From contig SGBD01000001.1 in assembly GCA_004195035.1 (NCBI GenBank), positions 248,001 through 312,000 on the forward strand: DNA of 64,000 nucleotides, in the 5' to 3' direction. Positions 40,707 through 59,967 of the stretch are shown here, piece after piece. Position numbers and translations under genes: made by a program. The first letter of the stretch is position 1; each line of letters starts with the position of its first letter. The DNA is from Candidatus Acidulodesulfobacterium ferriphilum (GTDB lineage: Bacteria; SZUA-79; Acidulodesulfobacterales; Acidulodesulfobacteraceae). The notes beneath the pieces were generated by a model. It was not told the DNA's origin. It saw nothing but the letters and a program-made list of their open reading frames with translations, and did not search any database.

Positions 40707-41879
40707 TTAACTAATTTCAACGTTATTAAGGCTTTTAGCTTTTTCTTTTAAATTTGCAAAATAAATTGCGACTGGTCTGTATGCCAAATGCGACCATTTG
40801 GAAAAAGGGACCTCTATGACTAACATGGGAAATAAAATCATCAGATGAACTATATATATATAAAATATCGAAGAAACCGGGAAATTATATACTATGGCGG
40901 CGCGCAGTATTATTCCGCTGACGCCGGTTAAAAATAACAAGATTACGAACATCCAGTCGGTATGATGAGAGAATTTGCTCCTTTCTATTTTCTTGGTAAG
41001 CCTCTTAATTACAAAATAAACGGTACCGAATATAAGTCCTATGCTGGCAAAATAATCGAATAAAATTATGTGGAGATACGGAAGGCTGTTTTCAGCCTGA
41101 AACCAGTCCAAAAAGAACACTATGCCGACAAACAGTACCACATAACTAATCATAAGAAAAAGATGCGTCAGCCAGAAATTGTATTTTCCGGTCGCAAGTT
41201 TTTTAGAAGAAGATTCCTCTGAATCGTCGCATTTTGCATATCTGTATTGTGTAAAAAAATTGAACATTAACGACCAGCCTTCGGTAAAATAAAGTTTTAG
41301 AGGAATTTTTACGCCCCTATCGCTTAAAACCGTTTTTCTGAACATATTATAAATAAAAGACGTCAGCATTACTCCCAGAAATACCGTAATCGGCCAGTCA
41401 AAAAAATAATCGATTTTATCGGGAGATACCGCCTGTTCCAGAGTAGCGCCTGCCGCGGGATGTAACCCGAAAAGCACAGCCCATTCTATTAAAACCCCCA
41501 GAGCGACTATCAATATCGCAATATATTCCGCATATTTAGATTTGTATAAAATTTTTGATATCCCCGTCCAGTCATATGCGCTTATTAAGAACCGGCGAAG
41601 GGACATCATTAATTCTCCTGGCTCGGCTTTTCTCGGGCAGTTTTTGGAACATTCTCCGCAGTAATAACATAGCCAAGGGTCTAAGTCGCTTACTAACTGC
41701 TCTTTCATTCCCCATCCCGCAAGTATCATTTCCTTTCTAGGAAACGGTCTGTCTTCCGTCGATAATGGGCAAACCGCCGAGCATGTTCCGCACTGGAAAC
41801 ATTTTTTGAAATTGCTTTCACCAACTTCGTTTATATATTCAACTAACTCGTTGTCAGTTTTTATTACGGTATTTTTCAA
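40707..41879 (-). CDS. qmoC: Quinone-interacting membrane-bound oxidoreductase subunit QmoC
   Basis: Fusion of an HdrC-like ferredoxin domain and an HdrE/NarI-like haem b membrane domain. Two [4Fe-4S] motifs are present: CFQCGTCSAVCPLS (about residues 24-37) and CYYCGECSKNCP (about 71-82). About six helices follow with histidines for haem. QmoC links the Qmo complex to the quinone pool so that electrons can reach or leave AprBA. Translation begins at TTG, with a run of nine G bases serving as ribosome binding site five bases upstream. Confidence 0.95.
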   Translation of the reverse strand: MKNTVIKTDNELVEYINEVGESNFKKCFQCGTCSAVCPLSTEDRPFPRKEMILAGWGMKEQLVSDLDPWLCYYCGECSKNCPRKAEPGELMMSLRRFLISAYDWTGISKILYKSKYAEYIAILIVALGVLIEWAVLFGLHPAAGATLEQAVSPDKIDYFFDWPITVFLGVMLTSFIYNMFRKTVLSDRGVKIPLKLYFTEGWSLMFNFFTQYRYAKCDDSEESSSKKLATGKYNFWLTHLFLMISYVVLFVGIVFFLDWFQAENSLPYLHIILFDYFASIGLIFGTVYFVIKRLTKKIERSKFSHHTDWMFVILLFLTGVSGIILRAAIVYNFPVSSIFYIYIVHLMILFPMLVIEVPFSKWSHLAYRPVAIYFANLKEKAKSLNNVEIS

Positions 41880-41896
41880 AATAACCCCCCCCCTTC

Positions 41897-44215
41897 TTAA
41901 AAACCTTTATATGGATTTGGCCCAAGCGATTTAACTTTATTAACGAAATCTTCCACTATTTCAGGCAATTTCATATAGTCTGTATATTCTAGCTGAACCT
42001 GTCTGACTCTTTCTTCCTCAAGAACCAGCCTTGTAAGAGTTTCTTTAAGATTTACCATTCTATACGATGCAAGCTCCGAACCCTTTACGAAATGACACTG
42101 GTAATCGTCGCCGAATTTACACCCTAACAAAAGTATTCCGTCAATACCCTTAGAAAGGGCATCGGCATACCAGACATTGTTGATAGATCCCAGACATCTT
42201 ACAGGCACAACTCTGATATTAGAAGATAAATTTATTTTATTAAGCCCTAATATATCAAGCGCCGGATACGCGTCGTTTTCACATGCGAATACTAGTATTC
42301 TGTAATTCTCATCCGTAGGGTCTTCCGGAACATATAAGCTTTTTATCATCGAGCCAATAATATCAGGCGAATAGTTTTTGAAAGATATAATTCTTACAGG
42401 ACATGCGCCCATACAGACGCCGCACCTTCTGCACCTTTCGGGATTAGGTTTCGGCGTTCCTTTTTCATCCTCGTCTATTGCGCCGAAAGGACATTCCTCC
42501 GTGCATCTTTTACACTGGGTGCACCTCGGAAGGTCGAAAAACGGATATGTCATATCGTTCGAACGGGGATGAACCGCCTTGCCTTTAGAAGTCTGTCTAA
42601 TACACTGCACCGCTTTTAAAACGGCCCCTTTTGCATCGTCCACCGAAAAAACGGTGTCAAGAGGCATCCTGACGGAACCAGCAGGATATATTCCCGTCCT
42701 TCTCGATTCGTAAGGAAAACATATAAAATTAGAATCCGGAAACCCGTAAGCCAGTTCCGGCATTTCTTTTCCCTGCCTGTATGCAAGATTCAATATTCCG
42801 CTTTTATTTATCTGAGCAGATGCGCCGGAATTTACCGCCGCACAAGAAGCCGCTTCGGCTCCTGCCGTTACCGTCCCTGCCGATGCGTTTACCTCTAATT
42901 TTATATCCTGATTCAGTATGGTTTCGCCGGAATTAGGAACCATTCCGGACGCAAGCACGACCATCTCGACATTTAAATCCATATCCCCGCCGAATAGGGT
43001 ATCTTTAACTTTTACATTGATAATATTATTCCCTTCGTCGTAAGAAACGCCGTAAACAATGCCTTTAACCATAAAAATACCTTCGTCGTTCTGCATTTTT
43101 CTATAAAAATTCTCATATTCTCCGGGAGTTCTCATATCTTTATATATTATATAAACATTTGCGTTTGGATTATTTTTTCTGATTAAAGCCGCTTCTTTAA
43201 GCGATGACATACAGCATACTGTTGAACAGTAAGGCAGATGGTTTTCGTCCCTTGAACCCGCGCACTGGATAAATGCGATAGATTTAACCGCCTTCCCGTT
43301 GGATTTTCTTTTTACGGCAAAACTTTCCGTTGTGCCGTTTTCGGAAAGTTCGGAATACAACTCCTCAAGTTCAATGTTAGTTAATATATCAGAGGTCAAA
43401 CCGTATCCTAAGTAATCGAGTTTTTTTGCATCGTAAGGTTTCCAGCCCGTCGCTACGACGATAGAGCCTATAGTTTCGTTTATAACTTCAGCTTTACTAT
43501 CTCCAGCCTCCGGCTCTATCTCAATGCTAAATTTTCCTGGAGCGCCCGATACGGACTTTATTTTAGAATTTTTATAGATTTTAATTTTTTTTGAATTTTC
43601 GACGGTATTTATAAGTCCGTCAAGTCCCTCTTTTATCCAGATGTTTTTATCGAAGGGGGGATTAGTTTCCCATTTTTTATATTTTGAATACGGAAACCCG
43701 CCTAAATTAGATTTTTTCTCGACTAAAACAACGTCATAGCCGGCTTTTGCCGAATTTATCGCCGCGTTAAGACCTGTGACGCCTCCTCCTACCACAAGAA
43801 CGGTTTTATTTAAATCCTGAATAAGAGGTTCAGGAAAGGCAGCTTTTTTAGCTCTCGAAGCGCCCATATTTACATAATCTTCGGCAAGAAGCTGCGTATT
43901 ATTGTCGTTTGGCAGACTAATCCAGATTACATGCTCTCTGAGGTTGACTCTTTCGGTATGAATAGAAAGCGGGTCAAAATTAAATACGTCCTGCTTGGCG
44001 CGCATCGAACAGGCGGCTATTACCAATTTATTTATCTTTTTTTCCGAAATATCGTTTTTTATAAGATTTACGCCTTCCGGTCCGCAAAGAAATTCATGGC
44101 TTACGCATACAACTGGCTTACTCGAATCCTTTGCTGTATTGACTAACCTTTCCACATTAAGATTTTTCCCTATATCGCAGCCGGAACATATATAAATCCC
44201 TAAATTATTATCCAT
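41897..44215 (-). CDS. qmoB: Quinone-interacting membrane-bound oxidoreductase subunit QmoB
   Basis: HdrA-like flavoprotein. After an N-terminal cysteine segment (ICSGCDIG) comes the FAD-binding VLVVGGGVTGLNAA, then two [4Fe-4S] motifs CTQCKRCTEECPFGA and CRRCGVCMGACPV, and a C-terminal MvhD-like domain (VFACENDAYP to ILLLGCKFGDDYQC). This order is that of QmoB, which transfers electrons in the complex with QmoA and QmoC. The start used here has AGGAG five bases upstream; a GTG two codons earlier touches that site. 772 residues. Confidence 0.95.
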   Translation of the reverse strand: MDNNLGIYICSGCDIGKNLNVERLVNTAKDSSKPVVCVSHEFLCGPEGVNLIKNDISEKKINKLVIAACSMRAKQDVFNFDPLSIHTERVNLREHVIWISLPNDNNTQLLAEDYVNMGASRAKKAAFPEPLIQDLNKTVLVVGGGVTGLNAAINSAKAGYDVVLVEKKSNLGGFPYSKYKKWETNPPFDKNIWIKEGLDGLINTVENSKKIKIYKNSKIKSVSGAPGKFSIEIEPEAGDSKAEVINETIGSIVVATGWKPYDAKKLDYLGYGLTSDILTNIELEELYSELSENGTTESFAVKRKSNGKAVKSIAFIQCAGSRDENHLPYCSTVCCMSSLKEAALIRKNNPNANVYIIYKDMRTPGEYENFYRKMQNDEGIFMVKGIVYGVSYDEGNNIINVKVKDTLFGGDMDLNVEMVVLASGMVPNSGETILNQDIKLEVNASAGTVTAGAEAASCAAVNSGASAQINKSGILNLAYRQGKEMPELAYGFPDSNFICFPYESRRTGIYPAGSVRMPLDTVFSVDDAKGAVLKAVQCIRQTSKGKAVHPRSNDMTYPFFDLPRCTQCKRCTEECPFGAIDEDEKGTPKPNPERCRRCGVCMGACPVRIISFKNYSPDIIGSMIKSLYVPEDPTDENYRILVFACENDAYPALDILGLNKINLSSNIRVVPVRCLGSINNVWYADALSKGIDGILLLGCKFGDDYQCHFVKGSELASYRMVNLKETLTRLVLEEERVRQVQLEYTDYMKLPEIVEDFVNKVKSLGPNPYKGF

Positions 44216-44256
44216 TTTCACTCCTCTTTCGAATATGTCTTTTTTCTTTATCTTTT

Positions 44257-45555
44257 TTATAATTTTACATTATGTTGAATTACGGAAAGAGCTGCGGAGG
44301 TCGCAGATTGACCTGACATGTACACATCTAAAGGAAACTTTGCTACTCCTGCTGAGAAAATGCCGCCCTCGAAGTTTTCATTGAATATAAAGCCGTTTTC
44401 GTCTATATCTATTTTTATACCGCCGTCTATTTTAATTCCGTTTAAGTCGTCTTTAATATTAGGATACATGCCGGCCGCAAGAACAACCATTTCCGCTTTA
44501 AATTTAATTTTTTTGCCTGAAAGTATATCTTCGACATCCAGCAAAAGGTCTCCCGTCATATGGTCTTCAGATATTTTTCCTACGACGCCTTTGTTAAATT
44601 TAATATTTTTATCGCAAGTAGCTTTATTGAGGAAATTTTCGTATCTTCCGGGGGTTCTTAAATCTATATAAAAAATAGTCGGGGTAGATGCAGAATTTTT
44701 TTCCCTTAAATAAAGAGCCTGCTTTAAGGATGCCATACAGCATATCGCTGAGCAATAAGGAAGATGGTTTTCGTTTCTCGAACCTGCGCACTGAATAAAT
44801 GCAACGTTGGTTACTTCTTTGTTATCCGAAGGCCTTAATATTTTGCCGTTTGTAGGACCGTTATCCGCTGCAAGCCTTTCCATCATTACATTGGTAATTA
44901 CGTTTTTAAATTTTCCGAATCCTAAGTTTTCTAATTTTTCTACGGCATACGGCTTCCAGCCAGTCGCAAAAATAATATCCGAAACTTTTAATTCTATTAT
45001 ATTTTCCTGAGCATTAAGGTTAATTGCATTATATTTACAAACTTCTTCGCATTTTTTACAGGATGAAAACTTGCAGTAATTTTCATCCACCGTATATTTA
45101 AGGGGAAATGTGGATATGGCAGGCAGATATATTGCTTTGGTCGTGTCCATATCGTAGTTGAAATCATTAGGTCTATCCTCAGGACAGGCTTTGGCGCATT
45201 CCCCGCAAATAGTGCAGTTATCGTTTATATATTGCGGTTTTTGGCGGATTTTAACTTTATATCCCGTTCCGTCTTTATCTTTATTTATTTCTTCTACGAC
45301 GGACGAAATAAAAAACTTTATATTACCTTCGGTCGAGGATTTTATTCGCTTAGTATTTATTTCAAATCCGCAAAATGGAGGGCACAGTTTAGGAAAATAC
45401 TTGTACATTTGCAGAACTCTTCCGCCTATATACGGTCTTTTTTCTACTATATACACTTCTTTATCGACAGATTCGGTAATTTCAAGCGCGGCAGAAACAC
45501 CGCTATGCCCGCCGCCAATTATAAGAACAGAATTTTCATTATTTATCTCGCTCAA
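44257..45555 (-). CDS. qmoA: Quinone-interacting membrane-bound oxidoreductase subunit QmoA
   Basis: HdrA-like flavoprotein of 432 residues. The FAD motif VLIIGGGHSGVSAALEI is at about residues 10-26. Two cluster-type motifs occur in the middle, CTICGECAKACPEDRP and CKFSSCKKCEEVCKYNA; the second is unusual in spacing. QmoA is the subunit thought to contact AprBA. The start is TTG with GGAG eight bases upstream. A hairpin separates the gene from aprA. Confidence 0.94.
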   Translation of the reverse strand: MSEINNENSVLIIGGGHSGVSAALEITESVDKEVYIVEKRPYIGGRVLQMYKYFPKLCPPFCGFEINTKRIKSSTEGNIKFFISSVVEEINKDKDGTGYKVKIRQKPQYINDNCTICGECAKACPEDRPNDFNYDMDTTKAIYLPAISTFPLKYTVDENYCKFSSCKKCEEVCKYNAINLNAQENIIELKVSDIIFATGWKPYAVEKLENLGFGKFKNVITNVMMERLAADNGPTNGKILRPSDNKEVTNVAFIQCAGSRNENHLPYCSAICCMASLKQALYLREKNSASTPTIFYIDLRTPGRYENFLNKATCDKNIKFNKGVVGKISEDHMTGDLLLDVEDILSGKKIKFKAEMVVLAAGMYPNIKDDLNGIKIDGGIKIDIDENGFIFNENFEGGIFSAGVAKFPLDVYMSGQSATSAALSVIQHNVKL

Positions 45556-45745: not shown

Positions 45746-47674
45746 TTAATTCTTTGGAACTAATTCGACATAAGGCTTTTTAAATATTTCGGGTTCCCCT
45801 GTTTTCCTGTTGAGTTTTGAATTAACAAACACCTTCCAGTTTTGTTCGTCTAAGTGCGGGTAGTCCATTCTGTAATAGAATCCAGGGTATCTTGTCTCCT
45901 GTCTATATAAAACATGTCTTAAATGGAGTTCTCCGACAACAGACCTGTGATAGTTTTCCCATGCCCTCATTAACTCATGCAAATTAGAAGCGGCAAGTTT
46001 CGGAGCATCGGCTTTAAGCCTGTTTAAAAGGTCTAATCCCCTTAAAAGGTTTGTCTCGCTCGTTCTGTAAAATGTCGAAGTACCGGCAACATATTCATCC
46101 ATAAGTTTATTTAATCTGAACATATAAAGCCTTGGCCTTATATAGTTTGGATTAACATTCGGCTCTGTGGAATAATCCTTGAATTTCTCGTAATTGATCA
46201 TCGGAGCATATATTCTTTCGGCAAGGGTCTTGTTATCCGTGTGGACGGTGGGCGCATAACCGGAATCGTCTAATATAAACCTGACGGCGGATTTGGCAGC
46301 CAATCTTCCCTCGGTATAAGAACCGGATGAAAACTTATGTCCCGAAGCTCCGACCCCGTCGCCGCCGGTAAACAGCCCGTTAACGGTTGTCATACGATTA
46401 TAACCCCAGTGCCAATCTTTAGGCGAAACATCCGAAGGACCGCTAACCCACATCCCGCAAGCTCCCGCGTGCGAGCCAAGGAAATACGGCTCGGTCGGCA
46501 TAACCTCTGAATTTGTCTCTTGAGGATCTATATCCATTGCTGCCCAAAGTCCAGCCTGAGCAACCGTCATATCTAGGAAGTCTTCCCATGCGTCTGCTTC
46601 GAGCGATTTTTTCCTCTTTTCAGGCAGTGTTTCAAAAAGTTTTTTCATTGCGCCCGAGGTATTCATATAAAATGGACCATTGCCTTCGAGCCAATCTTTT
46701 AACATAACATGATTCCAGAGGCAGGTAGCGGGAACATGAGCTTGCCCATACGGAGGATAATCTTTCAGCATATCTCCCCACTTTTGCATATAATCTTCGC
46801 CGTGGGCGTTTAAAACTCTGGATTTAAACAGAGTAAACCAAGCGCCGACAGGACCGTAACCGTCTTTAAACCTGTTGGGAACGAACCTGTTTTCCATGGT
46901 CGTCATTTCGGCTCCCGCCTCATATCCCATAGAGTAGGTTGAACCTGCGTTCCATACCGCGTACCATGTTCTTCCCATACCCTCGGCCTGAGATCTCGGT
47001 CTGAAAACATTAACCGCTCCGCCGCATGCCATTATTACGGCTTTTGCCTTGAATATATAAATCTTCGCATCCCTTAAGCTGAAACCGATTGCTCCGGCAA
47101 CCCTGTTTTCATGCTTTTCGTCCATAAGAAGCTGGATTATAAAAACTCTTTCGTAAATGTTTTCTTCGCCAAGGGCTTTTCTCGCCGCTTCCGCAACCAG
47201 AACCTTGTAAGATTCCCCATGAATCATTATCTGCCATCTACCGGCCCTCATGGGTTTTGCGCCCTCCTCGATAGTTCTTGTATCTTCTTCGTCTTCTTTA
47301 AATATCGGAAGACCGAATTTCTCGAATAGTTTAACCGACGAATCCACATGTCTGCCTACATCATAAACGAGGTCTTCCCTGACTATGCCCATAAGGTCGT
47401 TTGCAACATGTTTGACATAATCTTCCGGAGTATTTTCCGTTCCCAGATAAGTATTGATCGCGGAAAGCCCCATTGCGACGGCGCCGCTTCTTTCGATGGC
47501 AGCTTTTTCGACCATGGTTATTTTCATATCTTTCGGCGCCCATTTTTTAACCTCGAATGCCGCGCCGCATCCCACCATACCGCCTCCGACTATTAAAAGG
47601 TCGGTATTGATTTCTTCTATTGTATAGTTTGCTAAGACATCTGCGCTTGTCATTGAACCTTTTTGATCAGCCAT
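45746..47674 (-). CDS. aprA: Adenylylsulfate (APS) reductase subunit alpha
   Basis: FAD-containing catalytic subunit that reduces APS to sulfite and AMP, or runs in reverse in sulfur oxidisers. The FAD motif NTDLLIVGGGMVGCGAAFE is near residue 20, with ERSGAVAMGLSAINTYLG just after, an AprA hallmark. The substrate region FTGGDGVGASGHKFSSGSY is near residue 430. 642 residues is typical. It follows aprB. No evident defect. Confidence 0.98.
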   Translation of the reverse strand: MADQKGSMTSADVLANYTIEEINTDLLIVGGGMVGCGAAFEVKKWAPKDMKITMVEKAAIERSGAVAMGLSAINTYLGTENTPEDYVKHVANDLMGIVREDLVYDVGRHVDSSVKLFEKFGLPIFKEDEEDTRTIEEGAKPMRAGRWQIMIHGESYKVLVAEAARKALGEENIYERVFIIQLLMDEKHENRVAGAIGFSLRDAKIYIFKAKAVIMACGGAVNVFRPRSQAEGMGRTWYAVWNAGSTYSMGYEAGAEMTTMENRFVPNRFKDGYGPVGAWFTLFKSRVLNAHGEDYMQKWGDMLKDYPPYGQAHVPATCLWNHVMLKDWLEGNGPFYMNTSGAMKKLFETLPEKRKKSLEADAWEDFLDMTVAQAGLWAAMDIDPQETNSEVMPTEPYFLGSHAGACGMWVSGPSDVSPKDWHWGYNRMTTVNGLFTGGDGVGASGHKFSSGSYTEGRLAAKSAVRFILDDSGYAPTVHTDNKTLAERIYAPMINYEKFKDYSTEPNVNPNYIRPRLYMFRLNKLMDEYVAGTSTFYRTSETNLLRGLDLLNRLKADAPKLAASNLHELMRAWENYHRSVVGELHLRHVLYRQETRYPGFYYRMDYPHLDEQNWKVFVNSKLNRKTGEPEIFKKPYVELVPKN

Positions 47675-47740: not shown

Positions 47741-48175
47741 CTATTTCTGAGGCACTGCAAGCGTCTTTCCGTGCTCATCGCACAAAAGTTCGCTTTTTAA
47801 ATCCCCCTTATTTTCTTCCGGTATCCCATGATACGGGTCGATGCCGCCTTCGGGGGTGGTCCTGATTGGAAATTTAAATCTTTTAATCTTTCCGTTGCGG
47901 AACTTAACCGTCCACATTATGGAGTCCGAAGCCCTCATCGGAATAACGGAAGACCCCATAGGGGCGAAATCCTGGTATGCCCTTACCTCTATGGCAGACT
48001 GAGGGCATATCTTTACACAGCTATAGCACTCCCAGCACTGGTCAGGCTCCTGATTATAAGCCTTCATAATGTCTTTGTTAAGAACCATAAGATCGTTGGG
48101 ACAGATGTACTGGCAGGCAGTCTTATCTCTCCCTTTGCAACCATCACATTTTTCTGCAATTACAAAACTTGGCAT
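47741..48175 (-). CDS. aprB: Adenylylsulfate (APS) reductase subunit beta
   Basis: Iron-sulfur electron-transfer subunit with two [4Fe-4S] clusters: CDGCKGRDKTACQYICP (about residues 9-25) and CWECYSCVKICPQSAIEV (about 47-64). The C-terminal tail wraps AprA in known structures. The preferred ATG (MPSFVIAEKC) has GGAGG seven bases upstream; an ATG two codons earlier is too close to that site. 144 residues. It lies between sat and aprA. Confidence 0.97.
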   Translation of the reverse strand: MPSFVIAEKCDGCKGRDKTACQYICPNDLMVLNKDIMKAYNQEPDQCWECYSCVKICPQSAIEVRAYQDFAPMGSSVIPMRASDSIMWTVKFRNGKIKRFKFPIRTTPEGGIDPYHGIPEENKGDLKSELLCDEHGKTLAVPQK

Positions 48176-48240
48176 TTTCATACCTCCTCAATTAGTGTAT
48201 TATTATTAAATAAAACAATGTAGTATTTACCCTCCCCCAA

Positions 48241-48287: not shown

Positions 48288-49511
48288 TTATATTTCGCCC
48301 TTTGCAGCCTTGTGCAGTTTAACCTCAACCTTATCTTCTTTTGCAAGGGAAGCATAATACTTCTGTAATATTTTTAAAACCTCAGGTCTAGAAAAATGTT
48401 CGGGTACTTCCTGTCCTTCGGACAACAGCTTTCTGAGCATCGTCCCGCTTAAAGTAAGCCTGTCTTCCTTTGAATGCGGGCATGTTCTGGTAGATGCCAT
48501 ACCGTCGCACTTATGGCAGTAAAATGTCAGGTCCATTTTTAAAGGTTTTAATTCAAGTGCATTTTTAGGAATTTCGTCGAATATCTTATGCGCGTCGAAC
48601 GGCCCGTAATAGTCGCCGACGCCGGCATGGTCTCTTCCTACGATGAGGTGCGAACAGCCGTAATTTTGTCTAAAAACGGCATGAAGCAGCGCTTCCCTCG
48701 GTCCCGCATATCTCATCTCCATAGGATAACCTGCCTGAACAATAGTATTTTTAACAAAATAATTATCTATTAATGTGTTAATGGCAACCGCTCTGACACT
48801 GGCGGGAATATCGCCGGGTTTTAATTTGCCGACAAGCTGGTGAATCAGAACACCGTCCGTAGTTTCTATCGCAACCTTTGCAAGATATTCGTGAGAGCGA
48901 TGCATAGGGTTCCTTGTCTGGAAAGCGGCAACCGTGCTCCAGCCTTTTTCTTCGAATATTTTCCTTACCTCTGCGGGGCGCATATAAATTTCTTTGAACT
49001 CTACAGGATAAGAACTTTCGCTCAAAACCTTAACTTTGCCGGCAATATTAATATCGCCCTGCGCCATGACTTTCTGAACGCCGGGATGCTCCATATCCGT
49101 TGTTCTAAATATTTTTTGGCATTCGTGCGCCTTGTCTATGGAATATTTTTCGCTGACGGTAATTATCCCTATAATTTCCGAGGTTTCAAAATCAAACAAT
49201 GCTACATCTTCCCCGATATTAATTTCGTCGGCCATTTCTTTAGTGGATGAAAGAGTTATAGGTATAGGCCAAAATGTTCCGTCCTGCATCGTAAAATTAT
49301 CGACAACGCCCTTCCAGTCATTTTTGCCCATAAATCCTTCCAAAGGCGTGAAGGCGCCTATGCCCATCATTATCAAATCCGATGTTTCTCTTGATGTCAT
49401 AGGTAGTTTTTTGAGGGTTTTAGCATACTCTTTTGCTTCTTTAAGCTCATGTCCCGATAAAAGTAAGGGCATGAGTCTCTTTTCTTTTCCGTGGGGATTC
49501 ACCAATGCCAT
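48288..49511 (-). CDS. sat: Sulfate adenylyltransferase (ATP sulfurylase), dissimilatory type
   Basis: Activates sulfate with ATP to APS and pyrophosphate, or makes ATP from APS in sulfide oxidisers. The nucleotide motifs [14 protein letters not shown] (QxRN and HxxH, about residues 198-211) and [16 protein letters not shown] are intact, as is the [15 protein letters not shown] cysteine cluster typical of bacterial dissimilatory enzymes that bind zinc. 407 residues. It stands first in the sat-aprBA-qmoABC-hppA run and has GAGG before its ATG. Confidence 0.98.
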
Positions 49512-49758: not shown

Positions 49759-50058
49759 CTATGCCCATGTCATAGGATTATGCTCTACAACCTTTTCCAC
49801 GAAACCGTTATAATCCAGCAATTTAACATTTTCTATTACCTCGGACTCAAGGATTCCCCTTGCCTTTGCATCTGCCAGAAGGCAATAAACATGATTTTTT
49901 TGCAGTACCTCGTTTATTAAATTACTAAATTTGCCGCCTTTTTTAGCGGCATATACGCCGTCTTCCGTCAACAGCATTATATCGCCCTGGCGAATATAAT
50001 TTATGGCATTATTTAAAGCAGACGACTCGTAAGGCGACTTTTTAACTATATGAAGCAT
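49759..50058 (-). CDS. dsrH: DsrH (TusB-like) sulfurtransferase subunit
   Basis: Third subunit of the DsrEFH (TusBCD-like) complex. The start MLHIVKKSPYESSAL and the MLLTEDGVYAA strand match DsrH/TusB. The conserved Cys near position 20 of Allochromatium DsrH is replaced here (LNNAINY region), leaving one cysteine in VYCLLADAKARG. In E. coli TusB this subunit is structural, so the complex may still work through DsrE. 99 residues, GGAGG ribosome binding site region, 73 bases after dsrF. Confidence 0.85.
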   Translation of the reverse strand: MLHIVKKSPYESSALNNAINYIRQGDIMLLTEDGVYAAKKGGKFSNLINEVLQKNHVYCLLADAKARGILESEVIENVKLLDYNGFVEKVVEHNPMTWA

Positions 50059-50131: not shown

Positions 50132-50506
50132 TTAGAAAGGTAAAAAAGCCTTCATTTCATTCATTTTTTGTCTTAAGGCATTCCTATCTATAATCTCGAC
50201 TTCGGTAATTAAATCATTTTCGCTTAATCCTCTTTCTTCAAGGGATTCCTTTTCGACATAAATATGGGATATGTCAAAATCATCTATTAAAATAGGATAT
50301 GTCAGGGAAAAATTTTTCTTTCCGAGCAGCGCAGTATCCTGTCCTTTTTTTAACGAAAATACCCCGTCATCTATAAATGTAACGTTTATATCCTGTTCAT
50401 ATGCCCCAAACATAATCATGGCCTCAATTGCCTCCTGCTCAAAAATCGTTCCGTACGGAGCAGTCCTGCAAATAAACATAACGCTTGTTTTTTCCTTTTC
50501 CTCCAT
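50132..50506 (-). CDS. dsrF: DsrF (TusC-like) sulfurtransferase subunit
   Basis: Second subunit of DsrEFH. The start TSVMFICRTAPYGTIFEQEA and the segments FIDDGVFSLKKGQDT and EKESLEERGLSENDL follow Allochromatium DsrF and E. coli TusC closely. 124 residues is normal. It would form a heterohexamer with DsrE and DsrH that passes persulfide sulfur to DsrC. It lies between dsrE and dsrH. Confidence 0.88.
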   Translation of the reverse strand: MEEKEKTSVMFICRTAPYGTIFEQEAIEAMIMFGAYEQDINVTFIDDGVFSLKKGQDTALLGKKNFSLTYPILIDDFDISHIYVEKESLEERGLSENDLITEVEIIDRNALRQKMNEMKAFLPF

Positions 50507-50550
50507 GTCAAATCCTCTCTAATTTTTTCAATGTTAATATATGTAAATTA

Positions 50551-50901
50551 CTAAAATGTTATTAATCTATCGGACTCTATGCATAATTCCAATAGTTGGC
50601 CTAATCCTGATATTTCGGCCGCACTGGAAACGGTTTGAGCCACTAAACCTCTCCTTTTACCCGCGGCAACACAAGCAATTAACCTGATGCCTTTTTCATT
50701 AAGTCCTAAAAGCAAGTTTCTAATATTTCGCTCATCCCTCGGGGGTTCCATAGTCCCGCAGGTATTGCAAACGCCCTCGTTGTAAAAAAAAACTCCTTTT
50801 ATTTCATGGCCAAGTTCCATGGCCGCAACTATAAAATTATAGGCGCTGTCCATTGCTTGATGAGTATATTGTCCATCTTTTATAAGAACGCCGAACTTCA
50901 T
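50551..50901 (-). CDS. dsrE: DsrE (TusD-like) sulfurtransferase subunit
   Basis: Catalytic subunit of DsrEFH. The conserved sulfur-binding cysteine is present at position 77 in LIACVAAGKRRG, equivalent to Cys78 of the studied proteins; a CNTCG pair at about 45-48 may add a second thiol site. The start chosen (MKFGVLIKDG) has GGAGG before it; an earlier TTG would put the site inside the gene. 116 residues. First gene of dsrEFH, 75 bases after dsrK. Confidence 0.88.
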   Translation of the reverse strand: MKFGVLIKDGQYTHQAMDSAYNFIVAAMELGHEIKGVFFYNEGVCNTCGTMEPPRDERNIRNLLLGLNEKGIRLIACVAAGKRRGLVAQTVSSAAEISGLGQLLELCIESDRLITF

Positions 50902-50991
50902 TGACCCTCCTTGCAAATTAACAAATTAACTTAATTAATTACTTTATAGATAAAAAAGGTATCCGATTTTAAATCAGATAACTTTTTATCT

Positions 50992-52479
50992 TTACATTAC
51001 TATTGCATTACTGACAAGCTGATGAATTCCCCCTACCATTTCCGCATCAAACCCGTAAATAGGAAATATTTTTGTAAACTGGGTTTTGCAAATTGCACAA
51101 ATAAGGGCATAAAAATTAACTCCGTGATTATCGACCGCTTCCTTAACGGTCTGCATTCTCGGCATAGCCCCCGCTATTCGCACATTCATGACTTCTTCGG
51201 TCAACAAACCCCCGCCCGCACCGCAACAATAAGTCTTTTCTTTAGTAGTGCCTGCCCTTAATTCTACAAAACGGTTTGCGGCGGCTTTAATGAGCTCTCT
51301 CGGAATCGTAAACTGGCCACCCTGAAAATCACCCATTCTCGAAGCCCTTGCGATATTACATGAATCGTGAAATGTAACAACCTTATCGTCGTTCGCCGAA
51401 GGATCGAGTTTTATAACTCCGTCCTTTACGAGCCCTAATGTAAAATCGCAAATGTGCATGGGCTGCCTGTATTTGCCATCTAAGAAGTCAAAAGGCCCGT
51501 TCATGGTATTCGAATAGTTATACGCGGCTCTCCATGCATGTCCGCATTCCCCGATGACAACTCTTTTGACCTTAAGCCTTCTGGCTTCGTCCCAGATTCG
51601 TTTATTAATTTCTTTTGCATTCTTATAGCTTCCCAAAAACATACCGAAATTTCCGGCTTCGGATGCATATGACGAAACGGTATAGCTTATGCCTGCCTTA
51701 TAAAATACCTTTGCATATCCTTTAAGCGATTCCATGTGGGGCATTGCAAAAAAATCGGCGGAAGGAGGCACTAACAAAACCTCAACTCCTTCTTCATCCA
51801 TCGGTATTTTAACATCCTTCCCCGATTCTTCCTTTATTTCTTCCTCTAAATCGTCAAGCGTATTTCTTAAGGCGAGAGGGGGTATTCCGATATTATTGCC
51901 GGTTTTATAAACCTTATGAACAACTTCCGTTGCGTATTTCTGCCCAAGACCGATAGAATCCATTATTTGTCTTGCAGCCATCGTTATTTCCGCAGTATCT
52001 ATACCGTAGGGACAATAAAAGGAACACCTTCTGCATTCGGAACACTGATAAAAATATGTAAACCAGTCTTTCAATACTTCTTCCGTCAATTCTTGCGAAT
52101 TTGAAAGATTTTTGAAAAACCCTGCGGGAGTAAAATAATACCTATATACCTTCCTCATGAGTTCCTGTCTCTGAACCGGCATATTGTTAGGATCTGCCGT
52201 TCCGAGGAAAAACTGGCATTTGTCCGTGCATGCGCCGCATCTGACGCAAATATCCATATAATCCCTGACAGCCTTATTGTTATCTAATATCTCTTTAAAA
52301 ACCCCGATAGCCTTTTCCTTCCAGCCGTCCTGTAATTTGGCAGGAAAACCAAGGGCTTCCATGTCGTCTTTTTGGGCTTCAATCATGTGTTCGTAAGACG
52401 TGGCTCCGGGAACTATTTTAGGAATCGAAATCTTTCCGTCCAGAACGGGAACTTTATATTTATCTTTTGGCTTAGCCAT
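50992..52479 (-). CDS. dsrK: DsrK, HdrD-like iron-sulfur subunit of the DsrMK complex
   Basis: Cytoplasmic catalytic subunit related to heterodisulfide reductase HdrD. Two ferredoxin motifs are at Cys78-Cys88 (CVRCGACTDKC) and Cys146-Cys156 (CSECRRCSFYC). The C-terminal half has the CCG-type cysteines for the special [4Fe-4S] centre (GECGHAWRAAYN; TYCCGAGGGLL). DsrK is thought to reduce the DsrC trisulfide or disulfide with electrons from the quinone pool through DsrM. 495 residues. It is preceded by dsrM. Confidence 0.93.
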   Translation of the reverse strand: MAKPKDKYKVPVLDGKISIPKIVPGATSYEHMIEAQKDDMEALGFPAKLQDGWKEKAIGVFKEILDNNKAVRDYMDICVRCGACTDKCQFFLGTADPNNMPVQRQELMRKVYRYYFTPAGFFKNLSNSQELTEEVLKDWFTYFYQCSECRRCSFYCPYGIDTAEITMAARQIMDSIGLGQKYATEVVHKVYKTGNNIGIPPLALRNTLDDLEEEIKEESGKDVKIPMDEEGVEVLLVPPSADFFAMPHMESLKGYAKVFYKAGISYTVSSYASEAGNFGMFLGSYKNAKEINKRIWDEARRLKVKRVVIGECGHAWRAAYNYSNTMNGPFDFLDGKYRQPMHICDFTLGLVKDGVIKLDPSANDDKVVTFHDSCNIARASRMGDFQGGQFTIPRELIKAAANRFVELRAGTTKEKTYCCGAGGGLLTEEVMNVRIAGAMPRMQTVKEAVDNHGVNFYALICAICKTQFTKIFPIYGFDAEMVGGIHQLVSNAIVM

Positions 52480-53470: not shown

Positions 53471-53812
53471 TTAAACACAACCCGTGGGTTTTGGAAGTCC
53501 TGCTATTTTGGCAAGCTGTTTAGCAGGACCTTCGGGAAACAGTTCATAAATAAACTTGTTTGCTTCCTTTTTATCGGGCAAATTTTCAAGATTCATAACC
53601 TCTTTTGTAAGAGACTTAATAGCAGGAGCTACTTGAAACTTCTGGAAATAATCCCTGATCCATTCGATAAGTTTCCAGTGTTTTTCCGTAAGCGTTACAT
53701 TTTCCTGTTTAGCCAGAACTTCGGCAAGGCCTTTATCCCAATCGCCTAAATTTTGAAGGTAGCCTTCATCATCAGTTTCAATCTTCTTTCCGTTATAATC
53801 AAACTCAGCCAT
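53471..53812 (-). CDS. dsrC: DsrC-family sulfur carrier lacking the first C-terminal cysteine
   Basis: A 113-residue DsrC/TusE-family protein. Standard DsrC ends in a flexible arm with two cysteines ten residues apart (CKIAGLPKPTGCV type). Here the last one, Cys112, is present (GLPKPTGCV), but the first is Ala101 (GCC codon, in KQLAKIAG). The codons are clear on the minus strand. With one cysteine it cannot form the intramolecular disulfide and resembles TusE in that respect, while length and position between dsrL and dsrM are those of dsrC. GGAGG ribosome binding site. Confidence 0.9.
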   Translation of the reverse strand: MAEFDYNGKKIETDDEGYLQNLGDWDKGLAEVLAKQENVTLTEKHWKLIEWIRDYFQKFQVAPAIKSLTKEVMNLENLPDKKEANKFIYELFPEGPAKQLAKIAGLPKPTGCV

Positions 53813-53868: not shown

Positions 53869-55581
53869 TTAAATCATGTCTATATAGCCGCAAGGACAGC
53901 TCTCTGCACATTTCTTACAGCCGTTGCAGGTTTCTAAATGAAACTCGAAATGCTGTCCTTTCGGCAGTTTTTTTACCGCGCTCTGAGAACAGTATTCGAA
54001 ACAGCTTCCGCAGTCGAAACACATACCACAGCTCATACATCTCTTTGCCTCTATAATTAATTCATTCATGCCGAGATTGTTTAAAATCCCGTCGAAATCT
54101 TTAACTCTGGCCAAAGGGTCCCTCGAAGTTCTTTTCTGTCTTTCGGAAGTCTGAAAATATGCAATATACATATTTTTGCCTTCCCTGTTTACCGCGTCGC
54201 CGTATTTAATGACCGTTCTTTCGTCTTTCTTTACGGATTCTCCGCTCAGTTTCCGATGTATGGAATATGCCGCATATCTGCCCATTCCTATAGCATCGGT
54301 AACCAATCCGAATTTTAATATATCTCCCCCTGCAAAAACCTTATCTTCGTTGGCTACTAAATAATTATCGTCAACATTTAAAAACTCGTTGTTCGAATTT
54401 TTGGTTAAATTTTCCAGCCCTTTATAATCAGGCTTCTGACCGAAAGAGTATATCAATGTATCAAGTTTAAGATTAAGTTCCCGTCCGCCTTCTATTATTA
54501 TCGGATGAACTCTGCCTGAAGCATCTTTTTCGGAAAGCTTCATTTTTTTCAATCGCACTGCCGTTGCTTTTCCGTTTTCCGTAATAATTTCGTCTAAAGC
54601 AAACAGGAATTCGAATTTAATCCCTTCGGCATAACCTTCCTTTACCTCAACGGAACCTTTTTCTTCTATTTCGGAAACATCGTTTAAGGTTCCTTTATTA
54701 TAGATAAAGGTTACATTGGCGCCCAGCCTTCTTGACACCATTCCCGCATCCATAGCGCTGTCGCTTCCGATAACAACTACTTCTTTCCCTGCGTCTTTAA
54801 TTTCGCCCGAAGCTGCTTTCTGAAGAAATTCTACTCCGGCATAAACATTAGGGGCATCTGCTCCGTTCATCTTCATTTTTATAGGTTCATGCGTACCTAT
54901 TGCGACAAATACCGCATCAAATTCGGATTTAAGTTTATCCATCGCAATATCGGTTCCAATATTCACCCCTGTTTTTATTTCGACGCCGAGATTTTTAATT
55001 CTTTCGACCTCTGCATCTATAATGTCTAACGGAAGCCTGAAACTGGGTATGCCGTATCTTAGGTATCCTCCGGCTTCAGGGAATTTTTCGAATATCACGA
55101 CATTGTATCCCCTGATAGCTAAGTGATAGGCGGCAGAAAGCCCCGCGGGTCCGCTTCCGATAATTGCAATCTTTTCCTTTCTCGGAATATCCGTTATTTT
55201 TTTAAATTGAAGATTATTTTTTATACCGTAATCTCCCACAAACATTTCGATTGCGTTTATCGCTACCGGCTTGTCCTTATGCTTGCGGTTACATTCATCT
55301 TCGCAGGGATGAGGGCAAACCCTTCCCGTCGTGGACGGTAAAGGATTTGACTCGGTAAGCATATAAAACGCTTCCTTAAGAGACTCGTCGACTGGTCTTT
55401 CGTAAGACTCGCTTTGGGCGATGAACTGGATATAATTCCTTACTTTCGTGCCGTTAGGACAGGTATCCATACAGGGCGGCTTCTTTTCGACATATTTAGG
55501 CCTGTAAGGCGATTGCGACATCCCCGATGCGCCCGTCTGTGAAACATTTAACGGTTTTTTAACTTTTTTTAATTCAAGCAT
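53869..55581 (-). CDS. dsrL: DsrL, NAD(P)H:acceptor oxidoreductase
   Basis: Iron-sulfur flavoprotein related to the small subunit of glutamate synthase, working with DsrAB. An N-terminal cysteine region (CMDTCPNGTKVRNYIQ; CPHPCEDECNR) is followed by the FAD motif IIGSGPAGLSAAYHLA (about residue 140), a pyridine-nucleotide motif VVVIGSDSAMDAGMVSRRLG, and a C-terminal ferredoxin part ending CNGCKKCAESCPCGYIDMI. At 570 residues it is shorter than the 655-residue Allochromatium protein, as in the DsrL group found outside classical oxidisers. It sits between dsrD and dsrC. Confidence 0.93.
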   Translation of the reverse strand: MLELKKVKKPLNVSQTGASGMSQSPYRPKYVEKKPPCMDTCPNGTKVRNYIQFIAQSESYERPVDESLKEAFYMLTESNPLPSTTGRVCPHPCEDECNRKHKDKPVAINAIEMFVGDYGIKNNLQFKKITDIPRKEKIAIIGSGPAGLSAAYHLAIRGYNVVIFEKFPEAGGYLRYGIPSFRLPLDIIDAEVERIKNLGVEIKTGVNIGTDIAMDKLKSEFDAVFVAIGTHEPIKMKMNGADAPNVYAGVEFLQKAASGEIKDAGKEVVVIGSDSAMDAGMVSRRLGANVTFIYNKGTLNDVSEIEEKGSVEVKEGYAEGIKFEFLFALDEIITENGKATAVRLKKMKLSEKDASGRVHPIIIEGGRELNLKLDTLIYSFGQKPDYKGLENLTKNSNNEFLNVDDNYLVANEDKVFAGGDILKFGLVTDAIGMGRYAAYSIHRKLSGESVKKDERTVIKYGDAVNREGKNMYIAYFQTSERQKRTSRDPLARVKDFDGILNNLGMNELIIEAKRCMSCGMCFDCGSCFEYCSQSAVKKLPKGQHFEFHLETCNGCKKCAESCPCGYIDMI

Positions 55582-55900: not shown

Positions 55901-56986
55901 TTAAAATCTTGCATGGGACGAATAATTCATACTCGTTTCGGCAAGCCTAAAATCATCGACATGGTATTTTGTAAATTCAAATCCCGTTATTTTAAAGAAC
56001 CTCGACCAGCCGATTCTTTCTATCCATTCTATGACTCTTTCGCCCGGCTCGGCTCCTTTTTTGTACGCTTCCAGTATCGTCTTTACCGCCTGAACTGCCT
56101 TATCCCATCTTGGCGGCTCATTAGGTATAAAAGGAACGACTAATTTGGAAAAAGTGGGTTTTGTTCTTGCATTGGAAACCTTTCCGCCTACCCATATCGA
56201 AAGTCCGTCATTCTCGGCATCGGCTATCGGCATTGCAGGACATACGGTATAACAGCTTCCGCAAAACACGCACGTTTCCTCGTTGACTCTGACCGACTTC
56301 TTGTCGCCGACCATTTCGGGTCTTATAGAATTTGTCGGACATGCGGCAATCGTGCTTGGAACTTCGCAAAGATTAACAAGCCTTTCGTGATTAATTTTCG
56401 GGGGTTTTCTATGAGTTCCCAATATAGCTATATCGGACGAAGCAACCGAACCGCACATATTTAAACAGCATGCAAATGCTATTCTGACTTTTGAAGGAAG
56501 CTTATCTTCGACAAAATATTCATACAGTTCGTCCATTACCGACTTTACCACGCCTGATGCATCGCTTGCAGATGTATGACAGTGGACCCAGCCCTGGGTG
56601 TGAACTATATTTGCAACAACATTGCCGATACCGCCGACATTATAGCCTAATTTTTCAAGATCTTTTTTTAACGGTTCGATATTTTTTTCATTTTCTAATA
56701 AAAATTCGACATTATTTCTTGTGGTAAATCTTAGATATCCTCCGCAATATTTATCCGCCATATCGCTTATATCGCGAACAAAACCACTGCTGACCAATCT
56801 CGGCGAACCCATTCTTACTGTATATAGCTTATCCCCATTTTCTGCGACATGCACCATAGTACCAGGATCCAATATCTCGTGGTATGCCCATTTGCCGTAA
56901 TTTTTTTTAATCATGGGGGACAGATAATCATGATAATCATGAGGACCCACATCAGTTATTCTTTTTTTCTTGACCTCTTCCGGCAT
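55901..56986 (-). CDS. dsrB: Dissimilatory sulfite reductase beta subunit
   Basis: Catalytic subunit carrying functional sirohaem-[4Fe-4S] with DsrA. The cluster region includes [10 protein letters not shown] and [11 protein letters not shown], and an inserted ferredoxin domain has [15 protein letters not shown] (about residues 238-252). The start chosen ([11 protein letters not shown]) has GGAGG five bases upstream; the longer TTG start would contain that site. 361 residues is normal. It lies 68 bases from dsrA. Confidence 0.98.
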
Positions 56987-57054
56987 AAAAACCTCCAAAT
57001 TTATATATGGCAACTTTAATTAATAAAATTAAATTAAAAAATAAATATAAATAA

Positions 57055-58251
57055 TTATTCTGCGCCTGCTTCTTCGTCTTCAAACTTTATAAAAGGATTG
57101 CTTCTGGGTTCCCTGACCATATCGATTGTCGGTTCGAGTCCTATTCCTTCGAGGAAGGTGACAAGCCCAACCCTTGCAATAAGTTCGCCTATTCTTTCCC
57201 TGCTGACGCCGTATTCATCCCAGAATTCCCACATATTGCTTATTAATCCTTTAAGCCATTCATAGTCGTTTTTGCTGTCTTCATGAACATCGTAGAAAGG
57301 AATGAGCATCATGCCCATTCTCGGACCGGTAACTAACGGAGCTTTCGCTCCTATTAAAATCGATAAGCCTTTCTGGTCTCCCGATTTAAGCGCCTTAGGC
57401 ATCTCGTTTATACAATGCATACATTTAACGCAGTTAGAATCGTCTATAACAAGATTTTCTCCTTCAAACCACATACATTTTGTGGGACATTTATCTAACA
57501 CGTATTTCTGGACGTTAAATTTTTTAACGTAATTTTTTACTTCACCCTGATTTATTTTTATATTATCCTGCCATGTTCCGATAAATGCCAAATCTGACCT
57601 TGATGCCGCCGCGACGCAATCGTTTGCGCATCCCGAAAATTTCATTTTAAATTTATAATTGAACGACGGCCTGTGCAATTCATCCTGAAAAGCATGGGTT
57701 AAGTCATAGCATATCTGGAGAGTGTCATAGTTTGCAAATTCGCATCTCGCAGGTCCGACACAACAAGACGGGGTACGAAGATCCGAGCCGCTGCCGCCAA
57801 GGTCGAATCCTAATTCTGCGCTTTTTTGAAATAGATCTTCGGCATCGGCCTGTGTAAGGCCCAATATCTGAATATCGCCGGTTGACCCGTGAAAATTAAA
57901 AAGCCCGCCGGCATGCTGGTCTGCTATATCAGCCAATTTTCTCAGAACATCGGAATTATAAAAAAAACCTGATGTCTGGTTTAGCCTGATTGAGTGGCAT
58001 TCCTTGACGCCCGGATATTTTTCCGGAAACTCCGAGAATCTTCCTACCATTCCGGCGCCGTATCCCCTGACGCCCGCCATGCCTCCGTGTTTCCAGTGGG
58101 TAATTTTATCCCTGTAAGATTCTTCGACCTGCCCTAAAAGATCTTCAGTTCTTTCGCTCTTTTCGGCCGCCCTTTCCATTTCTCTAACAAAACTTATCCA
58201 CTTCCCCTTTTTAAGTTCGTCAAGAAGCGGAGTTTCATGTTTTTTACCCAT
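57055..58251 (-). CDS. dsrA: Dissimilatory sulfite reductase alpha subunit
   Basis: Alpha subunit of the sirohaem sulfite reductase that converts sulfite to DsrC-bound or free sulfide, or sulfide/persulfide back to sulfite. Sirohaem-cluster cysteines are in TPSCCVGPARCEF (about residues 168-180) and FSGCANDCVAA (about 210-220). The ferredoxin domain has CPTKCMWF and CVKCMHCINEMP. 398 residues is typical. GGAGG lies four bases before the ATG. It is the first gene after the dsr promoter. Confidence 0.98.
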   Translation of the reverse strand: MGKKHETPLLDELKKGKWISFVREMERAAEKSERTEDLLGQVEESYRDKITHWKHGGMAGVRGYGAGMVGRFSEFPEKYPGVKECHSIRLNQTSGFFYNSDVLRKLADIADQHAGGLFNFHGSTGDIQILGLTQADAEDLFQKSAELGFDLGGSGSDLRTPSCCVGPARCEFANYDTLQICYDLTHAFQDELHRPSFNYKFKMKFSGCANDCVAAASRSDLAFIGTWQDNIKINQGEVKNYVKKFNVQKYVLDKCPTKCMWFEGENLVIDDSNCVKCMHCINEMPKALKSGDQKGLSILIGAKAPLVTGPRMGMMLIPFYDVHEDSKNDYEWLKGLISNMWEFWDEYGVSRERIGELIARVGLVTFLEGIGLEPTIDMVREPRSNPFIKFEDEEAGAE

Positions 58252-58494: not shown

Positions 58495-59967
58495 TCATTT
58501 TATTTTTAAAAAATCTTTTTTAACTTCTTTTTTATTTTCTTTTACAAAAGATACCCAGTTTTTAAACCATTTGGGTGCGGAAGGAGAAAATATATGCGTA
58601 TAACTTGCAATCATATTTTTATAAATAATACCGTCGCTTGCTCCGTTTACCCCAAATCCTTTTTTCACATTAAAGACAAAATCCATGTTATCCGGCGATG
58701 GTGTTTCTAAAAATGAATGATGGAACTCGTGTCCTTTAATAAATTTAATCTTATTAAACCATAGCCTGCTATTTTTATCGTAAAAGGCAGGCGTTAATTT
58801 GGTGTAGCCATGCCCTTTAGGTTTTTTCGTTAATTTTACATCGGCATCTATTGCTCCGGTCATTTCGCATACGATATCGCTGTAGGAAATGCTTTTACAA
58901 AGATACATAAGTCCGCCGCACTCGGCATAGACAGGAAGACCCGTTTCAATCTTTTCCCTTATATCTCTTCTTAAATCAATGTTTGACTCTAAATCCCTGC
59001 AGAAAATTTCCGGGAAGCCTCCCCCTATATAAAGGGCGTCAATATCGGGCAGACGGCCATCTTTAAGCGGAGAGAATTTGATTATCTCGCAACCCAAATT
59101 CTCAAGCGCTTCAATATTTTCATTATAATAAAAATTAAATGCATTATCGTAAGCAAGACCTATTTTGACTGTGTTTCGGACATTCCTTGCTTTATTCTTT
59201 TTCCGAAATAAAGAAGGTAAATTTTTAATGCCGCCGTAAGATTTGCCCGCAATTTTTGAAATCTTTATAATGCCATCTATATCGATATAATCTGAAATTT
59301 TAGAAGACATATTGGAAACAAAATTTTCGATGTCTTCGGCGGAAAGCGTAGATAAAAGGCCGAGATGCCGTTGTTTTATGGAAAATTCAGGGTCATTCGG
59401 AACATTACCGATTACCTTAAAATCGGTATAATAATTAATTGCTTTGATTAAATTTTTTTCATGCCTTTTACTGTGCACCCTGTTAAGAATTATCCCTTTT
59501 ATATTTACATCCTTGTCAAAGTTTTGAAACCCTAAAATAAGCGGAACAACCCCCCTGTTTAATTCCCCTACATCGATTAAAAGAATTACGGGGATGTCCA
59601 GGAGCTTTGCCATCTCCGCATTAGAAGATTTTCCGTATATGTCAAAAGAGTCGTGCAGCCCATGATTCCCTTCGACAATGCTAACATCTGAATTAAGCGA
59701 ATATTCTAAAAAGTGCTTTTTAATTTTATTTTTGGACATAAAATAAAAATCCAGGTTATAGCAGTTTTTACCCGTAGCCGTGCTTAACCACATTGGATCT
59801 ATAAAATCGGGGCCCTTTTTAAAGGGTTGAACTATAAGCCCTCTATCCCTAAGCAGCCGCATTATAGCTATAGAAATGGTTGTTTTGCCAGAATTCCTTT
59901 TTGCCGCAGAGATGTAAAATCCGTTGATGCGGTTATTTTTTTTGTTATTGCCGGTAATATCATTCAT
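58495..59967 (-). CDS. dsrN: Cobyrinate a,c-diamide synthase family protein (DsrN, sirohaem amidase)
   Basis: Glutamine-dependent amidotransferase of the CobB/CbiA family. The N-terminal ATP domain has AAKRNSGKTTIS (residues 21-32) and the C-terminal type I GATase domain has the nucleophile Cys350 in VYAECGGLMYLC. In dsr operons this protein (DsrN) amidates sirohaem for DsrAB; elsewhere it acts in cobalamin synthesis. Position just upstream of dsrA favours DsrN, though a cobalamin role cannot be ruled out since cbiX occurs in this window. It overlaps the small gene upstream by eight bases. Confidence 0.88.
   Translation of the reverse strand: MNDITGNNKKNNRINGFYISAAKRNSGKTTISIAIMRLLRDRGLIVQPFKKGPDFIDPMWLSTATGKNCYNLDFYFMSKNKIKKHFLEYSLNSDVSIVEGNHGLHDSFDIYGKSSNAEMAKLLDIPVILLIDVGELNRGVVPLILGFQNFDKDVNIKGIILNRVHSKRHEKNLIKAINYYTDFKVIGNVPNDPEFSIKQRHLGLLSTLSAEDIENFVSNMSSKISDYIDIDGIIKISKIAGKSYGGIKNLPSLFRKKNKARNVRNTVKIGLAYDNAFNFYYNENIEALENLGCEIIKFSPLKDGRLPDIDALYIGGGFPEIFCRDLESNIDLRRDIREKIETGLPVYAECGGLMYLCKSISYSDIVCEMTGAIDADVKLTKKPKGHGYTKLTPAFYDKNSRLWFNKIKFIKGHEFHHSFLETPSPDNMDFVFNVKKGFGVNGASDGIIYKNMIASYTHIFSPSAPKWFKNWVSFVKENKKEVKKDFLKIK

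Follow-up and report, generated by a model that had tools for sequence, protein, structure and literature searches.

Gene content and order of the dsr cluster

The window, which is the whole stretch of 64,000 nucleotides that was analyzed, carries a sat-aprBA-qmoABC-dsr gene cluster on its minus strand (Table 1). The genes are arranged in the order dsrN-dsrA-dsrB-dsrD-dsrL-dsrC-dsrM-dsrK-dsrE-dsrF-dsrH, followed by sat, aprB, aprA, qmoA, qmoB, and qmoC. The lineage, Ca. Acidulodesulfobacterales (SZUA-79 in GTDB), has been reported from acid mine drainage (Tan et al., 2019); among the relatives named in public records are Ca. Acididesulfobacter and the isolate SZUA-79.

Table 1. Coordinates of the cluster genes and of the two key codons of dsrC in the window.
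Feature	Position	Strand	Basis
dsrN / cobB-like siroheme amidase	58495..59967	minus	TIGR00379, 450 bits
dsrA	57055..58251	minus	TIGR02064, 486 bits, over cut-off; closest solved chain 3mm5_A
dsrB	55901..57013	minus	TIGR02066, 504 bits, over cut-off; cluster cysteines kept
dsrD-like ORF, 76 aa	55646..55876	minus	named from its place between dsrB and dsrL and from Tan et al. (2019)
dsrL, NAD(P)H oxidoreductase with ferredoxin domains	53869..55581	minus	NF009410, 536 bits
dsrC, single-cysteine DsrC, 113 aa (Ala101, Cys112)	53471..53812	minus	PF04358, E=1e-39; TIGR03342
Ala101, codon GCC, CysB position	53510..53512	minus	position set by alignment
Cys112 (CysA), codon TGT, sole cysteine of DsrC	53477..53479	minus	codon read
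dsrM, short form, 253 aa	52555..53316	minus	NF038037, 105 bits, under the curated 300; flanked by dsrC and dsrK in relatives
dsrK, CCG/CxxC motif intact	50992..52479	minus	NF045796, 530 bits, over cut-off
dsrE, active Cys kept	50551..50916	minus	TIGR03012, over cut-off; aligned with 2hy5_A
dsrF, lineage-typical Cys13	50132..50506	minus	TIGR03010, over cut-off
dsrH, without equivalent of A. vinosum DsrH Cys20	49759..50058	minus	TIGR03011, over cut-off; alignment
sat	48288..49511	minus	named from sequence and cluster position
aprB	47741..48181	minus	named from sequence
aprA	45746..47674	minus	named from sequence
qmoC, qmoB, qmoA	40707..45555	minus	named from sequence

The dsrD-like ORF gave no Pfam match and is 74-91% conserved in relatives, in which sat is syntenic with 81-94% identity. 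The gene dsrL is located immediately upstream of dsrC, as in all SZUA-79 loci with sufficient flank, and dsrC lies between dsrL and dsrM in all of these loci. Two divergent dsr operon types, with DsrA ~68% and DsrL ~50% identical, were found in the family; the order dsrL-dsrC-dsrM is kept in both, and both encode a DsrC with the alanine described below. The dsrABL operon types (L044-L051; G026 = L134, L135) are spread over genera of one family, with genome G026 containing both, and this distribution is a sign of a putative horizontal replacement of the dsr core. Over most of the tract 50381-50980, which spans dsrE and the first part of dsrF, the identity to locus L040 is ~95-100%, with ~80% in the flanks; toward L029, otherwise the nearest relative, the pattern is reversed, which looks like a recent exchange of dsrE between lineages. 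The DsrL of the window contains FIYNKGT, in agreement with the YNK that was described as an exception of this order in place of the YRR motif of DsrL-2 (PMC7596348).

The single cysteine of DsrC and its conservation

The DsrC of the window belongs to the DsrC/TusE/DsvC family according to PF04358 and TIGR03342, reaching 138 bits with the latter at a cut-off of 53.5, and carries the penultimate CysA (Cys112) inside the conserved C-terminal arm. The second cysteine of canonical DsrC, CysB, which is located eleven residues before CysA, is missing here and in all 25 complete arms of the family. No gaps are needed to align the arm LFPEGPAKQLAKIAGLPKPTGCV with those of A. vinosum (...GPAKQACRFAGLPKPTGCV) and of D. 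vulgaris (...GPGKGACKMAGLPKPTGCV) and other solved DsrC, and therefore Ala101 stands exactly at the position of CysB (D. vulgaris Cys93). Residue 100 is a leucine where the other compared DsrC have alanine, changing 'AC' to 'LA'. Reading of the codons and the gap-free alignment bear out the initial annotation, which had described a DsrC with Ala101 (GCC) and only Cys112. No other cysteine able to replace CysB was found in the whole protein, and an intramolecular trisulfide form of this predicted DsrC is excluded.

In comparison with the DsrC of sulfate reducers and sulfur oxidizers (A. vinosum 1YX3, D. vulgaris 2V4J chain C, A. fulgidus 1SAU), the protein is of the same family and of similar length, is alike in the arm around CysA (GLPKPTGCV) and holds the equal place among the dsr genes. 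It differs from these proteins by the alanine at CysB and the leucine before it, with which neither an intramolecular disulfide nor a trisulfide is possible. The predicted protein is filed here as a member of the DsrC/TusE family with a role in the Dsr pathway, which fails one defining feature of canonical DsrC.

DsrC is encoded in 23 of the 30 genomes of Ca. Acidulodesulfobacterales, and a genome search at the phylum level gave the same 30 genomes as the family search. The 25 complete arms come from these 23 genomes and all of them carry alanine at the CysB position. A second sequence collection gave the same result with alanine throughout. The alanine is thus fixed across the lineage, a point which had been marked for checking, and no cysteine was found at this position in a related species. 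Among 48 loci the alanine is encoded by GCC (19), GCT (16), and GCA (13), with many genomes present in both overlapping collections and counted twice. Since all complete arms have alanine and several alanine codons are used, a read error or chance is ruled out. In addition, the assembly coverage given for the contig of a relative, whose DsrC is 99% identical, is 454x. The C-terminal arm is almost invariant in the lineage and the median pairwise dN/dS of dsrC is ~0.05, a rough value as dS is near saturation; by these estimates dsrC, including the arm, is under strong purifying selection.

The own genome (1.87 Mb, 7 contigs, 97.3% complete) contains one gene of the DsrC family. A second full DsrC elsewhere had been one of three alternatives predicted from the window, beside a persulfide relay with DsrEFH and a different DsrAB/DsrK mechanism, yet neither the own genome nor any other of the 23 genomes with DsrC encodes a two-cysteine form. 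Two genomes (G017 and G026) have two complete DsrC genes each, with alanine in both copies, and the second DsrC match of G024 is an N-terminal fragment. A peptide scan of viral contigs revealed no relative of this DsrC, and a plasmid collection contained only TusE-like genes from enterobacteria and Aeromonas. An error in sequencing or assembly, or a decayed gene beside a full DsrC elsewhere, has a negligible probability in view of 25 copies in 23 genomes with three alanine codons, of the strong purifying selection and of the missing second full DsrC.

Assignment to the Dsr pathway

The presence and absence of DsrA and DsrC match across the 30 genomes with two incomplete exceptions: G014 has DsrAB without DsrC on a contig that ends at 18752, within or just past dsrB, and in G023 (59% complete) dsrB and dsrC were recovered but not dsrA. 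Five genomes with a completeness of 90-99% (G002-G006) and a further one with 86% (G025) have neither DsrA nor DsrC, and keep TusA and full MnmA matches. As DsrC tracks DsrAB and is absent from genomes that have MnmA and TusA but no dsr genes, it can be assumed to serve the Dsr pathway and not tRNA thiolation. Use of the Dsr pathway is not uniform in the lineage, as these six genomes illustrate.

The term TusE-like, which had been applied to the protein, is appropriate for its cysteine content only, as it lies outside the TusE clade and is untied to tRNA thiolation by genome content. Like TusE, the E. coli-type carrier of tRNA thiolation, it has only the penultimate cysteine, and an alanine, serine, or threonine at CysB is the TusE pattern (PMC3397948). 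A TusE for tRNA 2-thiouridine, sitting in the dsr operon by chance, would explain this pattern, but it is very improbable: the gene is absent from the six relatives with MnmA and TusA and without DsrAB, so that a service to MnmA independent of DsrAB is rejected by this indirect test of genome content, the score of 109 bits with the TusE equivalog NF008562 is below the cut-off of 191, and the tail reads TGCV instead of VKCI or AKCL. Many of the tusE-like/DsrC genes of phages (112/141) also keep the second cysteine only (Nat Commun 2021, PMC8190135); those are auxiliary phage genes, whereas the DsrC of the lineage is the only copy and part of a complete dsr operon.

In a DsrC/TusE tree of 81 sequences and 111 columns, a short alignment rooted at the midpoint only, the sequences with alanine form one clade (support 100/100) and the TusE sequences with threonine or serine a separate one (100/99), with two-cysteine DsrC around both. 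The nearest neighbors of the alanine clade are two-cysteine DsrC of Spirochaetia (93/76). Published analysis placed the DsrC of the lineage at the base of oxidative-type DsrC, with the DsrC of Desulfurella in the same group (PMC10504309). The comparison with DsrAB-bearing lineages outside the family comprised few sequences and no Desulfurella DsrC. Taken together, the own tree and the published placement favor the view that a two-cysteine DsrC lost CysB a single time; this loss would date to the ancestor of the lineage as sampled.

Partner proteins and possible mechanisms

The cluster cysteines of DsrA and DsrB are kept and DsrK retains Cys...CCG...CxxC, the same as in DsrK of sulfur oxidizers. 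Any different working of DsrK would therefore not go via altered cluster ligands. Residue 83 of the DsrB of the window is serine, with cysteine in nearly all relatives and compared outgroups. Of the features of type I DsrEFH, the active-site cysteine of DsrE (A. vinosum Cys78) is present in the window and kept in all complete DsrE, and Cys20 of DsrH is missing in the window and present in the DsrH of L045, L050, and L051.

Lineage alignments of the Dsr proteins, together with outgroups, revealed no strictly conserved cysteine that replaces CysB. The cysteines Cys181 and Cys259 of DsrA seemed to be lineage-specific against three outgroups and were rejected, since they are common to the solved DsrA 2xsj_A. 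Likewise, Cys344 and Cys464 of DsrK are also found in DsrK of sulfur oxidizers, and the CxxC-like cysteines of DsrE are not conserved in the family. Cys13 of DsrF is present in 19 of 20 lineage sequences (leucine in L033), with asparagine in four outgroups, and may be a weak candidate for a stand-in thiol. Genome G000 has nine TusA-family and 12 DsrE-family matches, including three of the DsrE family in a row (C4:221805-224852), which by these matches is a large predicted repertoire for sulfur transfer.

The accepted trisulfide model, in which sulfite reduction is coupled to energy conservation at the membrane, is built on the two-cysteine arm of DsrC. The DsrC of the lineage is probably a functional, dedicated protein of the Dsr pathway that lost CysB once and works with one thiol, with a persulfide on Cys112 and the second thiol from elsewhere. 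Sulfur would be carried as a persulfide on Cys112, which may be loaded by DsrEFH or, with DsrL as the electron donor, by DsrAB during sulfite reduction. As this DsrC cannot close an intramolecular Cys-S-S-S-Cys trisulfide, the second thiol would come from another molecule, either a second DsrC, a sulfurtransferase (DsrEFH, TusA) or a small thiol, and the product would be an intermolecular di- or trisulfide. DsrMK would then reduce this two-molecule bridge or the persulfide directly. Enzymes of the HdrB/HdrD kind with a CCG motif reduce a bridge between two molecules. DsrK has the same catalytic CCG motif as the related HdrD/HdrB, whose substrate CoM-S-S-CoB joins two molecules as proposed here; in DsrK of the lineage the substrate would be a protein persulfide or a mixed trisulfide, so that by analogy only, a reduction of either form by DsrMK is plausible. 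For A. vinosum it was shown that DsrEFH can load DsrC with a persulfide as long as the penultimate cysteine is present, CysB being dispensable, and that binding of persulfide or sulfite to DsrC requires the penultimate cysteine alone (Stockdreher 2012, PMC3397948). Based on this, the loading half of the cycle can run in the lineage as well.

As to the direction of the pathway (reductive, oxidative, or both), dsrD and the reductive DsrAB argue for reduction, and DsrEFH and the oxidative-type DsrK for oxidation. If DsrC were a carrier for oxidation only, sulfur would pass from TusA via DsrEFH to a persulfide on Cys112 and on to DsrAB, an outside thiol would free sulfite from the Cys112 sulfonate, and sulfate reduction would not be the main task. 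The operon with DsrEFH and DsrL, the match of DsrK to its sulfur-oxidizer counterparts, the published place of the lineage's DsrC at the oxidative-type base (PMC10504309) and the sufficiency of A. vinosum Cys111 for persulfide and sulfonate binding (PMC3397948) are in line with this. However, DsrAB was reported to be of the reductive type (Tan et al., 2019), a dsrD gene is present, and in the A. vinosum model it is CysB that releases sulfite, so that the gap remains here too; this explanation is unlikely. Even less probable is a DsrC that is no redox substrate and only gates or activates DsrAB, while DsrAB and DsrL reduce sulfite fully to sulfide with six electrons. DsrL gives electrons from NAD(P)H to DsrAB in related systems (PMC7596348) and CysB is missing throughout the lineage, as such a role would allow, but Cys112 is invariant, as is almost all of the arm, and the neighboring DsrMK has been retained with its catalytic motif unchanged.

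CysB has been held to be strictly conserved in organisms with a sulfur-based energy metabolism (Stockdreher 2012, PMC3397948), a published rule which the predicted DsrC of this lineage breaks. The initial annotation was right in calling a DsrC without CysB unexpected in a dsr operon; the surrounding sat-aprBA-qmoABC-dsr cluster is complete. No earlier mention of this exception was found in the open-access literature, a scope outside of which several key papers lie. In practice CysB is used to separate DsrC from TusE, and published selections retain two-cysteine sequences only (PMC5516251, PMC6129605); an annotation rule that demands two cysteines will miss genuine DsrC of the Dsr pathway.

With a full sat-apr-qmo-dsr gene set and a one-cysteine DsrC only, the lineage either bypasses the trisulfide or uses the thiol of a partner. 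We tentatively propose, at somewhat less than even confidence, that a presumed sulfate-reducer lineage of phylum-level rank may operate the DsrAB-DsrMK cycle with no trisulfide formed within one DsrC molecule, via an intermolecular protein heterodisulfide or trisulfide or by direct reduction of the persulfide, in which case CysB would not be obligatory for energy conservation based on Dsr. The last step of sulfide production in these presumed sulfate breathers would then depart from the textbook.
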